From an uncultured Flavobacteriaceae bacterium (GTDB taxonomy: Bacteria; Bacteroidota; Bacteroidia; Flavobacteriales; Flavobacteriaceae), in NCBI GenBank assembly GCA_905479435.1, contig CAJQMN010000116.1, positions 1 to 32,908 of the forward strand: DNA of 32,908 nt, given 5' to 3'. Shown piece after piece: positions 4,981 through 10,323 of this stretch. Position 1 is the stretch's first letter. Every line of letters starts with the position of its first letter. Under the pieces are notes generated by a model. The model was not told where the DNA came from, ran no database searches, and saw nothing but the letters and a program-made list of their open reading frames with translations. A program made the translations under genes and the position numbers.

Positions 4981-5000
4981 TTGTGTAGATAATTACACAA
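4981..5000. promoter_or_regulatory. Inverted repeat just upstream of the membrane-protein run
   Basis: TTGTGTA (4981-4987) and TACACAA (4994-5000) are perfect inverted copies around a 6-nt spacer, ending 14 nt before the start codon at 5015. Position and size fit an operator in the leader or promoter of the three-gene membrane run. It could also form a small hairpin near the ribosome site. Function is inferred. Confidence 0.4.
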
Positions 5001-5014
5001 AATGTTATAATACA

Positions 5015-5914
5015 ATGTATTACATGGTCAAAATAAACAAGATATTACAACTTCTATTTGATAAACTTCTTTCAGATAAAACAAGAACTAAGACAGAAAA
5101 AGTAATTCTGAATATAGCGCTATTTAGCTTTTTTATTCATTTAACATTTATATATTTATCTAAATTAGATATCATAAATTTCACCTCAAGTTCTGAATTA
5201 TTAAACAATCCTATATCTGCAATTTATACACCTTTTTCATTTATTCTTATTTATGAAGTGTATCTCTTGATATATTATTTACCGAAATCTTTTACTACAT
5301 ACATTACAAAACAATATCAAATAATTACACTTATTATAATTCGAAAATTATTTAAAGATTTATCAGCATTGGAGCTAACATCAGATTGGTTTGAAATAAA
5401 AGGAGATTTACAATTTACATATGATTTGATTGCTTCCCTACTTCTATTCTTTTTAATTTATTTATTTCAAAAGCAAGGAAAACAAAAAATTAAACAACAA
5501 ATTAATTTACAGCCCGTAATAGAAAAATTTGTCCAGAAGAAACGATTAATAGCTGTTATTCTAGTGCCTTTGTTTTTTTTTATGGCTCTAAATACGCTAA
5601 TTAAATGGTCTACAGGGGTTACTATTTCTTCAAGTGAATTTCCGTCACTAGAAAGTATTAATAATCTATTTTTTGATCAATTTTTTACTGTATTAATTTT
5701 AGTAGATGTAATTTTACTTTTAATTTCTTTCTTCTATACAGACCAATTTCATAAAATTATCAGAAATTCAGGGTTTATCATTTCTACTATTTTAATACGC
5801 ATGTCTTTCGGAGTTAGTGGTTTAATTAACACCATACTAATTCTTGTTGCAGTTTTATTTGGTTTGGCCATACTTTCAATTCATAACAAGTATGAAAAAA
5901 ATTATTTAATTTAA
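5015..5914 (+). CDS. Conserved-looking polytopic membrane protein, unknown function
   Basis: 299 residues from the ATG at 5015; a second ATG at 5024 is equally possible. I do not recognise a characterised family. Hydrophobic segments lie at about 30-50, 70-90, 101-110, 134-151, 178-196, 221-240 and 253-288, which suggests six to eight inner-membrane helices. The loop after the fourth helix (about 152-177) is basic. Aromatic-rich stretches such as AIYTPFSF and EVYLLIYYLP, then LIIIRKLF, look constrained rather than random. There is no signal peptide, metal motif or nucleotide-binding motif. Two tiny membrane genes follow on the same strand at 49 nt and by overlap, so the three may form one complex. 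Channel, transporter or accessory subunit are all open. Confidence 0.7.
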   Translation: MYYMVKINKILQLLFDKLLSDKTRTKTEKVILNIALFSFFIHLTFIYLSKLDIINFTSSSELLNNPISAIYTPFSFILIYEVYLLIYYLPKSFTTYITKQYQIITLIIIRKLFKDLSALELTSDWFEIKGDLQFTYDLIASLLLFFLIYLFQKQGKQKIKQQINLQPVIEKFVQKKRLIAVILVPLFFFMALNTLIKWSTGVTISSSEFPSLESINNLFFDQFFTVLILVDVILLLISFFYTDQFHKIIRNSGFIISTILIRMSFGVSGLINTILILVAVLFGLAILSIHNKYEKNYLI

Positions 5915-5963
5915 AAAAGAATTGTCTATCATTTTTTTTTACATTTATCAAAAATAGTTATTA

Positions 5964-6152
5964 ATGAATTTTATAAAAAAAATAGGATTGTCTAACTTAC
6001 TTATGTTAGCATTGTGTTTTATGATTATAGTCATTGCTGAGTATATGTTTTTATCTGGAAACAAATTGCATGGAATTTTCATCGGTTTATGGGCACCAAC
6101 ATTGTTGGGAGTATTAATTTATCTAAAACTTATAGAAAATGAGCGCAGATAA
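5964..6152 (+). CDS. Small two-helix membrane protein, unknown function
   Basis: 62 residues with helices at about 12-30 and 36-55, and polar ends (MNFIKK at the start, ENERR at the end). The link between the helices, FLSGNKLHGIFIGLWAPT, is short and carries Gly, His and Trp, so both ends probably face the cytoplasm. It starts 49 nt after the 299-residue membrane protein, and its end overlaps the next 35-residue ORF by 14 nt. I do not know a function. The absence of any membrane-unrelated domain and the tight packing argue that it is an accessory subunit. Confidence 0.65.
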   Translation: MNFIKKIGLSNLLMLALCFMIIVIAEYMFLSGNKLHGIFIGLWAPTLLGVLIYLKLIENERR

Positions 6153-6246
6153 TATAGTCCTTTATTTTTCGATATTTGTAGTTGCTTTTGTTTTAGTTTG
6201 GGCATTTTTTATGATACGCCAATATGATAAAACTGGTAGAAATTAA
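6139..6246 (+). CDS. 35-residue single-helix membrane peptide
   Basis: The ATG at 6139 opens a 35-codon frame, ended by TAA at 6244-6246. It begins inside the last codons of the 62-residue gene, a 14-nt overlap that suggests translational coupling. The peptide starts MSADN, has one hydrophobic helix (IVLYFSIFVVAFVLVWAFF, about 6-24) and ends in a charged tail, RQYDKTGRN. That layout, a short N-terminus, one helix and a basic C-terminus, is typical of small subunits of membrane complexes, such as CcoQ-like or CydX-like peptides, but no direct relation is claimed. The alternative is a chance ORF; codon use and helix quality make a real gene more likely. Confidence 0.55.
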   Translation: MSADNIVLYFSIFVVAFVLVWAFFMIRQYDKTGRN

Positions 6247-8674: not shown

Positions 8675-9460
8675 TTAGATTTGAATGTCCTTATCGTAAG
8701 GTATACTTTTTAATATATGGTTAATGGTATTTACCCTAGCCTCTGTCTTTCTATTGGCCTTTATCACTTTCCATGGAGATTTTTGAGTGTCTGTGATTGT
8801 AAACATGGCCTGTTTATACTTCGTGTAGTCATCCCATAATTCTTGAGCCCTTTCGTCTACAGGTGACATTTTCCATTGTTTCAAAGGATCACTTCTTAAA
8901 TCATCAAACCGCTTTGCTTGTTCTTTTTTAGAAATGGACATGTAGATTTTAACCAAGTGAATACCAGATTCTAAAACCATTCTTTCAAAATCATTAACTT
9001 GACCCATAAATGTAGTGTACTGTTCGTCTGAACAAAAGCCATTAACTGGCTCTAAAACAGCTCTATTATACCAGCTTCTATTAAAAAAAACCATCTCTCC
9101 CGCTTTTGGAAATTGTTCTATATATCGTTGAAAATACCATTGTGTTTGTTCATCTTCTGTAGGCTTAGGTAGGGCTACGATTTTAATATGTCTTGGATTA
9201 ATTCTTTCTGTAATTCTCCTAATTGCACCACCTTTACCAGCTGCATCTCTTCCTTCAAATAGGATAATAACACGTTCATTATTATTGATTGCCCAAGTTT
9301 GAAGTTTTATTACCTCTATTTGTAATTTTACTAATTTTCGTTCATACTCAATATATCTGAGCGTTCTGTCAACATTAATTGAGTCTTTGGACAAAATTGA
9401 TATTAAACCTTTCTTTGAATTTAATTTTTTTAACTCTGAAGATGATAATTCTCTATTCAT
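8675..9460 (-). CDS. ppk2: Polyphosphate kinase 2 family protein, second copy
   Basis: 261 residues. PPK2 enzymes move phosphate between polyphosphate and nucleotides and mostly work in the direction of making NDP/NTP. Walker A FEGRDAAGKGG is at 68-78, then QWYFQRYIEQFP, and the Walker B region FFNRSWYNRA is at 125-134. The lid/arginine segment follows, RSDPLKQWKMSPVD. The Walker B motif has Asn127 where the upstream paralogue and most class I enzymes have Asp (FDRSW); class III enzymes also use Asn there, but in a different context (FNRSHY). It begins 2 nt after the end of the upstream PPK2 gene, so the two are co-translated. Substrate preference (ADP, GDP, AMP) cannot be read off. Confidence 0.9.
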   Translation of the reverse strand: MNRELSSSELKKLNSKKGLISILSKDSINVDRTLRYIEYERKLVKLQIEVIKLQTWAINNNERVIILFEGRDAAGKGGAIRRITERINPRHIKIVALPKPTEDEQTQWYFQRYIEQFPKAGEMVFFNRSWYNRAVLEPVNGFCSDEQYTTFMGQVNDFERMVLESGIHLVKIYMSISKKEQAKRFDDLRSDPLKQWKMSPVDERAQELWDDYTKYKQAMFTITDTQKSPWKVIKANRKTEARVNTINHILKSIPYDKDIQI

Positions 9461-9462
9461 AA

Positions 9463-10323
9463 TTAATCTATTTGAAAAGCAGATCTGTAGTAACGCATCA
9501 CTACATTTGGATCTGGAGTTAATGTTGTTTCTGAATCCTTTTTACCATCATAATCAAACATAGATAATACATACCTCATAGCTTCCAATCGAGCTGTTTT
9601 TTTATTATTGGTTTTAATTAACATCCATGGGCTGTAAGAAGTATGTGTTTTGCTAAACATTTCTTCTTTATAATGTGTATAGATGTCCCAAAGCTCTTGA
9701 CCTTTTTTATCTACTGGACTAAATTTCCATCTTTTTAATGGATTTTCGTTTCTAGCATTAAATCGCTTTAATTGTTCTTCCTTTGATATAGAAAGCCAAA
9801 ATTTTATAATGATTAAACCATCCTCGTATAACATATGTTCAAATTCAGGAACTTGCACAAGGAACTCATTATACTCTTTATCTGTACAGAAATCCATTAC
9901 TGGTTCTACCACTGCTCTGTTGTACCAACTTCTATCAAAAAATACAATTTCTCCAGGGTTTGGTAACTCTTTTATGTACCGTTGAAAATACCATTGTCCT
10001 TTTTCAACATTTGTTGGTTTATTCAATGCCACCAACCTCGAAGATCTTGGATTTAAATGTTCCATAAACCTTCTGATATTTCCTCCTTTTCCAGCAGCGT
10101 CTCTTCCTTCAAAAACAACGGCAACTCTTTTATTTTCCTTTAAAACCCATTGTTGAAGTTTAACCAATTCTATTTGTAAAAACCTTAATTGTTTTTCATA
10201 AGTTAGAACATCAAATACCTTTTGACAAGATATCCCTTTGGTATTTAATTTGCTTATTAATTCTTGTGAAGAATTAGATTCAAAAAAATCTAGTGCTTCT
10301 AAAAAGGGTTTAGGTGCTGTCAT
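9463..10323 (-). CDS. ppk2: Polyphosphate kinase 2 family protein, first copy
   Basis: 286 residues, canonical class I layout: Walker A FEGRDAAGKGG at 71-81, QWYFQRYIKELP, and Walker B FFDRSWYNRA at 128-137 with the usual Asp130. The lid segment (ENPLKRWKFSPVD) and a C-terminal conserved PWMLIKTNNKKTARLEAMRYVL are also present. An extra C-terminal stretch of about 30 residues is not found in the second copy. It leads a two-gene unit with the second ppk2, separated by 2 nt. The protein is cytoplasmic. No ppk1 or ppx gene lies nearby. The pair may form hetero-oligomers or divide nucleoside mono- and diphosphate substrates, which is inferred. Confidence 0.92.
   Translation of the reverse strand: MTAPKPFLEALDFFESNSSQELISKLNTKGISCQKVFDVLTYEKQLRFLQIELVKLQQWVLKENKRVAVVFEGRDAAGKGGNIRRFMEHLNPRSSRLVALNKPTNVEKGQWYFQRYIKELPNPGEIVFFDRSWYNRAVVEPVMDFCTDKEYNEFLVQVPEFEHMLYEDGLIIIKFWLSISKEEQLKRFNARNENPLKRWKFSPVDKKGQELWDIYTHYKEEMFSKTHTSYSPWMLIKTNNKKTARLEAMRYVLSMFDYDGKKDSETTLTPDPNVVMRYYRSAFQID

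Follow-up and report, generated by a model that had tools for sequence, protein, structure and literature searches.

A probably rhodopsin-linked membrane protein gene beside a conserved bicistron of two small membrane proteins in a Flavobacteriaceae genome

Three genes for membrane proteins follow one another on a single strand in the genome of an uncultured Flavobacteriaceae bacterium, and the locus raises the question of whether they belong together as one unit or are neighbours with separate histories. The window, i.e., the whole stretch of DNA that was analysed, comprises 32,908 nucleotides of contig G000:C116 from a genome (G000) that is 72% complete, and the genus-level group of this genome was judged to include Polaribacter. 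The three genes are flanked by an enoyl-CoA hydratase-like and a cysteine desulfurase-like gene, and the features of the locus are as follows:

4981..5000 (arms 4981-4987 and 4994-5000), no strand: 7-bp inverted repeat with a 6-base spacer, 5′ of the large gene
5015-5914, + strand: open reading frame of the 299 gene with the upstream ATG, 299 aa (ORF list)
5024..5914, + strand: large membrane protein (299 gene), of a probably rhodopsin-linked subfamily, 296 aa from the homologue-aligned start
5964..6152, + strand: 62-aa two-helix (hairpin) membrane protein (ORF list; homologue conservation)
6139..6246, + strand: 35-aa one-helix membrane protein, starting inside the end of the 62-aa gene (ORF list; pN/pS)
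6139..6152, + strand: 14-nt overlap of the 62-aa and 35-aa genes (shared end and start)

An earlier reading, made from the letters alone, had described three frames on one strand, the last two overlapping by 14 nt, had taken all three products for membrane proteins of no recognised family, and had proposed that they make up a small membrane complex. The three reading frames are real: all were found where they had been placed, overlap included, and Kyte-Doolittle windows gave seven hydrophobic stretches in the large protein, two in the 62-mer and one in the 35-mer. Nothing in Pfam or NCBIfam exceeded the curated cut-offs for any of the three, which agrees with the absence of a recognised family. 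The sole Pfam hit of the 299-aa protein was ODV-E18 (E 0.24, below cut-off), with no match to the microbial rhodopsin model PF01036; the 62-aa protein gave nothing, and the 35-aa protein gave only sub-threshold hits to SosA (E 0.0094), DUF3021 (E 0.026), and FtsL and YajC (both ~0.2). The Blh model PF15461 matched none of the proteins in the Pfam search. A literature search, with supplementary tables outside its scope, found no published description of the three proteins. Homologues align to the ATG at 5024, so that the large protein more likely has 296 residues, and its gene is followed, after a gap of ~49 nt, by the 62-aa gene on the same strand.

The inverted repeat ahead of the first start, also part of the earlier description, is present and perfect in the window. 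Comparable 7-bp repeats are held by 105 of 1643 sixty-base windows of this same sequence (6.4%), and one arm is broken in a related genome (G009); the repeat is therefore weak evidence, does not clearly exceed chance, and was rejected as an operator.

The distribution of the large gene points to a link that the sequence-only reading had not mentioned, namely one with rhodopsin. A rhodopsin gene was found in 59 of 249 Flavobacteriaceae genomes. In a profile search at E<=1e-6 the 299 family was detected in 55 of the 249, 42 of them with rhodopsin, and at E<=1e-80, which retains the close form, in 40, of which 39 carry rhodopsin; the lone rhodopsin-negative carrier (G208) is 82% complete, 20 of the 59 rhodopsin-bearing genomes have no close form, and 189 genomes have neither gene. 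At the genus level the gene was present in 8 of 10 rhodopsin-positive versus 2 of 26 rhodopsin-negative genomes (8, 2, 2 and 24; p 6e-5), and one genome, G005, has two copies and no rhodopsin. Relatives were detected in 11 of 59 near genomes, and 45 of 178 genomes across the phylum matched the 299 profile.

Presence of the 299 gene tracks rhodopsin beyond shared ancestry. Ancestry was controlled for with a tree of five Act-region proteins from 60 genomes, taken out of 80 with known ActD position and deliberately enriched for carriers; G208 was coded as a carrier, and G183 and G159, which have distant forms only, as lacking the close form. A Pagel-type test (own script, mild penalty, midpoint root) of the 299 gene against rhodopsin gave a likelihood ratio (LR) of 26.4 (p 2.7e-5) and placed the estimated gains of the 299 gene almost solely in rhodopsin-bearing lineages. 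When independent pairs were drawn with the 299 gene leading, 3-6 of them went the same way (mean 5.2) and none the opposite way (median p 0.06), and with rhodopsin leading 4-8 went the same way (mean 6.1), again with none opposed (median p 0.03). A tree of the 299 family itself, made by a quick method that carries a warning of long branches meeting, held one clade of 55 rows (97*), of which 48 were rhodopsin-positive, three rhodopsin-negative (two from G005 and one from G208) and four untested. A separate clade of 12 rows comprised sequences from Chlorobium-like genomes, G014, G183 and G204, the last of these rhodopsin-positive. In two rhodopsin-bearing genomes the 299 gene is split or contains stop codons (G184:C31:90101-90984 and G262:C1:2062282-2063138), by either decay or sequencing error.

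In the window genome the rhodopsin gene lies on another contig (G000:C147), and by the listed positions the two genes are <=5 kb apart on one contig in 9 of 39 double carriers; in the remaining 299 carriers rhodopsin is more distant or on a different contig. Closer arrangements were found in two other families, whose sequences are not sisters in the 299 tree. In G390 (L247) the order is 299 gene, blh, rhodopsin on the opposite strand, and the hairpin gene with its partner, all within ~3.2 kb, and in G330 (L418, L433) blh and the 299 gene are codirectional, with rhodopsin 1.4 kb from blh. The 299 gene is also 0.9-2.3 kb from blh in ten streamlined genomes, with rhodopsin 1.9-3.4 kb away in nine of them (in L348 the stretch ends first). 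Since folD and ffh, as read by eye, separate the 299 gene from blh in these ten (folD alone in L340), the linkage there may be inherited synteny. The co-occurrence and the two blh clusters together make it likely that the large protein is functionally tied to rhodopsin, and the rhodopsin link is the part of the present interpretation that is held with good confidence.

The dN/dS of the large gene is 0.02-0.05 among G000, G009 and G013. A first AlphaFold model had a mean pLDDT of 71.7; a second, built with 39 sequences, reached a mean pLDDT of 79.3 and a pTM of 0.73, and predicted a short helix at the N-terminus and eight longer ones, and the alignment shows conserved charged residues inside helices. 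A fold search of the PDB with the two models gave no clear match. The TRP-like pore of tetrameric cation channels was aligned with two helices at residues 161-238 (Z 8.7, rmsd 3.2 over 75 residues), a score in the range that the tool calls common for helical models; TRP pore helices and rhodopsins recurred as weak hits and were set aside. An internal duplication that had been suspected by eye was likewise unsupported when the two halves were compared (hhalign E 0.18).

The two small genes have a different distribution and form a conserved bicistron, in which the 35-residue frame is under purifying selection. The 62-aa gene was found in 17 genus genomes (an eighteenth hit, E 0.008, came from another family), and at all 17 loci the 35-aa frame is intact and overlaps it by 14 nt. 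The fear that this frame would be broken in relatives was thus not borne out: in 14 of the 17 members (L071, L075 and L078, of other lengths, were excluded), pooled pN/pS of the 35-mer was 0.29 versus 1.08 and 1.36 in the shifted frames, and that of the 62-mer 0.22 versus 0.75 when the same bases were read in a shifted frame. More widely, the best 80 of 147 profile-matched relatives came from named loci in Polaribacter, Winogradskyella, Muricauda/Flagellimonas, Olleya, Psychroserpens, Cellulophaga, Lacinutrix and other genera. Among these best 80 of 147 the partner is complete in 79 (L144 is cut by a contig end; in L175 the script motif missed the partner, which was found by eye), and nearly all have the conserved start, with an overlap of 14 or 11 nt. 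Among more distant relatives the pair is kept in 18 of 20 loci by script and in the other two by eye. Profile A4 found hairpin relatives in 65 of 249 Flavobacteriaceae genomes, 184 showing no pair, and, across the phylum, in 102 of 296; in the two Chlorobium-like loci read, the hairpin relative stands without a one-helix partner. Comparison with the PDB returned Na+/H+ antiporter subunit B (E 0.21), chemokine receptors and designed proteins as weak matches, which were regarded as chance.

Several features of the small genes were observed in passing. The one-helix partner of streamlined genomes, e.g., L197, L199, L200 and L346, differs from the 35-aa form in its longer tail, in which a DxDGxGNxGR-type motif recurs. 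Between G000 and G013 the synonymous divergence of the 62-aa gene is 0.08 (3 changes), far below the 0.82 of the adjoining 299 gene, which may reflect recent transfer, constraint or small numbers.

Do the pair and the large gene belong together? They adjoin one another, in the same order, only in the window's own clade (G000, G009, G013 and the named contig L111), and five relatives hold both parts at separate places (G005, G006, G014 with a distant 299 form, G015 and G031). The genes are thus not kept together in related genomes, which refutes, as a generality, a fixed operon of all three. The proposed association did survive in a looser form, as hairpin and 299-type genes lie <=3 kb apart in 9 of 54 loci by script count; these are 8 of the 49 loci that have a full 3 kb on either side, and L111, which has 2.6 kb on one side. 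By our own grouping these represent five settings: the window clade, G018/G022, G206, G113 and G390. A chance estimate for this closeness, which assumes random placement in 2.5 Mb genomes, was P ~1e-7 (46 loci). In G018 and G022 the hairpin near the 299 gene is divergent and was found by profile search; the genus table, which used a search with the window protein, scored both as pair-negative, and the hairpin profile search left out rhodopsin-negative genus members.

Genome counts gave a similar mixture. Presence of the 299 gene is associated with that of the pair in the 59 genomes that have rhodopsin (31 with both, then 8, 8 and 12; p 0.004); G114 is one genome that carries all three, i.e., rhodopsin, the 299 gene and the pair. 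Moreover, 37 of 45 299-positive genomes of the phylum also have the hairpin, 26 of the 37 being from family f31 and the figure outside f31 being 11 of 18. On the tree of 60 genomes the association of pair and 299 gene was not significant (LR 5.7, p 0.22; 3.2 pairs the same way and 0.8 the other), and 34 of 65 pair genomes have no close 299 form. The pair was also compared with rhodopsin. Across the 249 genomes the counts were 39, 26, 20 and 164, with an odds ratio of 12 when the tree was left aside, and 26 of 65 pair genomes (9 of 17 in the genus) lack rhodopsin; on the tree of 60 genomes this association too was not significant (LR 5.5, p 0.24; independent pairs 4.3 the same way and 1.1 the other).

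The neighbourhoods of the pair are varied. In many Polaribacter loci it stands head to head with a SusR-like regulator beside SusC/SusD, GH13, GH97 and GH31 genes; in Winogradskyella and others a fused CcsBA-like protein is encoded nearby (this cluster occurs in 39 of the best 80 of 147); and in Muricauda the neighbours are DUF294 and a DnaQ-like gene. The SusR-like gene next to the pair is interrupted in one genome (G031; L067 4912-7723), leaving frames of 398 and 548 aa. Rhodopsin and blh lie within ~5 kb of the pair in 10 of the best 80 of 147, of which nine are Winogradskyella loci (L137, L150, L157, L163, L167, L170, L171, L172 and L174) and the tenth is L183, where blh directly precedes the pair. 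The pair and the rhodopsin gene diverge from each other, ~130-230 bases apart, at 3 of 20 phylum loci (L239, L243 and L247).

Relatives of the hairpin were also found inside respiratory operons. In four genomes of other classes they lie between the ActB-like and NrfD genes of alternative complex III operons (L255/G432, L256/G572, L259/G422 and L261/G564); ActD was identified by Pfam in G432/L255 (E 9.6e-63) and by BLAST to G432 in G422 and G564, and the assignment of G572 comes from a Pfam match of its ActB-like protein and reading by eye. The window pair itself is not in an act operon (actA-F), and a script that recovered its control locus found act genes in none of 117 Flavobacteriaceae pair loci, the window included. 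Profiles A4, A6 and A7 were compared with PDB chain sequences and matched no small subunit of alternative complex III up to E 10; in the Rhodothermus marinus structure (PMC5928083), ActG is reported to have no density. Two of these act operons (L255 and L256) include a one-helix partner; L255 and L261 also encode a protein of 93-103 aa that looks like the one-helix part fused to a second hairpin. Elsewhere (L253, L254 and L268), a two-helix relative of the hairpin is immediately followed or overlapped by a gene that reads by eye as CrcB-like (fluoride channel).

These observations can be brought together in a reading to which we give roughly even chances, namely that the locus joins a rhodopsin-linked multi-helix protein with an older, free-standing small-protein bicistron. 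The large protein would come from a multi-helix inner-membrane subfamily that is connected, in marine Bacteroidota, with the use of light through rhodopsin. The pair seems to be older and more general, as other classes have its relatives within respiratory operons and several lineages have them close to rhodopsin or the 299 gene, so that it would adjoin the large gene here, and rhodopsin/blh loci or an alternative complex III operon elsewhere. The large protein would share the membrane with rhodopsin and might handle the light-made ion gradient as a regulated channel, leak or coupler. This role is suggested by the membrane topology, the conserved charged residues in helices and the places of the relatives, and is put forward tentatively. 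The small pair could act as accessory subunits that settle on the large protein or on respiratory complexes; a physical tie between pair and large protein is somewhat less probable than its absence.

The main rival to a functional tie with rhodopsin is shared habitat, whereby the 299 gene would mark sunlit open-water life and have surroundings, not mechanism, in common with rhodopsin. This has a real, if minority, share of the probability: a photolyase paralogue and DUF2237 are likewise enriched in rhodopsin-bearing Flavobacteriia, according to Kumagai et al. 2018 (PMC5932025), and the 299 gene is not near rhodopsin in the window or, as counted above, in most double carriers. Against it stand the strength of the tree-aware association and the position of the 299 gene beside blh and near rhodopsin in G390 and G330.

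For the pair, the alternatives concern its partner. It could be an accessory of alternative complex III or of its oxidase, unrelated to the 299 protein and adjacent to it in the window by chance, which is a doubtful but by no means negligible reading. The relatives inside the four act operons fit it, as do the presence of ActD in 244 of 249 Flavobacteriaceae genomes and the non-significant tests of the pair against rhodopsin and the 299 gene on the tree; however, act genes are absent from the Flavobacteriaceae pair loci, hairpin and 299 genes come close in five settings, and 184 of the 249 genomes lack the pair although nearly all have ActD, so that alternative complex III cannot explain the patchiness. 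A dedicated three-subunit complex made from one operon, as first proposed, would agree with the short codirectional gap and with the order repeated in G009, G013 and L111, but the five genomes with separated parts and the many pair genomes that lack a close 299 form make it improbable. A part in alpha-glucan utilisation, to which the Polaribacter neighbourhoods might point, was rejected as very improbable indeed, since the neighbours differ in other genera (ccsBA-like, MscL, DUF294, ilvD, PMI).

Known systems offer partial likenesses. At the blh-rhodopsin cluster of marine bacteria, a 299 or hairpin gene is present in G390, G330, L183, L239, L243 and the nine Winogradskyella loci, but the window proteins match neither PF01036 nor PF15461, and the rhodopsin of the window genome is on its separate contig. 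Small subunits of alternative complex III such as ActG of R. marinus (PMC5928083) are also small membrane proteins, and pair relatives are encoded in four act operons, whereas the window pair lies outside any. Kumagai et al. 2018 (PMC5932025) described 43 orthologue groups enriched in rhodopsin-bearing Flavobacteriia, predominantly of unknown function, and the 299 family may be among them (Table S5); DUF2237 and the photolyase paralogue, likewise unknown-function or light-related genes from the same kind of comparison, are different proteins.

As for the pair, it is alike in size and topology, the two features on which this comparison rests, to accessory proteins of the AcrZ and CydX type. AcrZ, CydX and the like are small subunits of membrane machines, with one or two helices and 30-60 aa. 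The pair also illustrates that a 35-residue gene, easily missed in annotation, can be widely conserved.

Phototrophy by means of rhodopsin is common across the sunlit ocean; to our knowledge only the pump, the retinal supply and a few statistical companions are known for it in these bacteria. The large protein offers a concrete candidate for a component missing from this list: its close form occurs in the family almost only with the pump, and its gene stands beside the retinal gene blh in two other families, so that it may be an unrecognised component of sunlight use. A more far-reaching and speculative idea, which we consider possible but not probable, is that marine Bacteroidota possess an undescribed membrane module of a multi-helix, a two-helix and a one-helix protein that works with rhodopsins, e.g., by sensing the ion gradient, coupling it or letting some of it leak away, and that its components have older relatives at work in other lineages of the phylum, in energy membranes based on respiration or chlorophyll; in Chlorobium-like genomes both the hairpin and the large protein do have relatives. 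Elsewhere in the window, at 8675-10323, two adjacent genes appear by eye to be polyphosphate kinase 2 paralogues in tandem.
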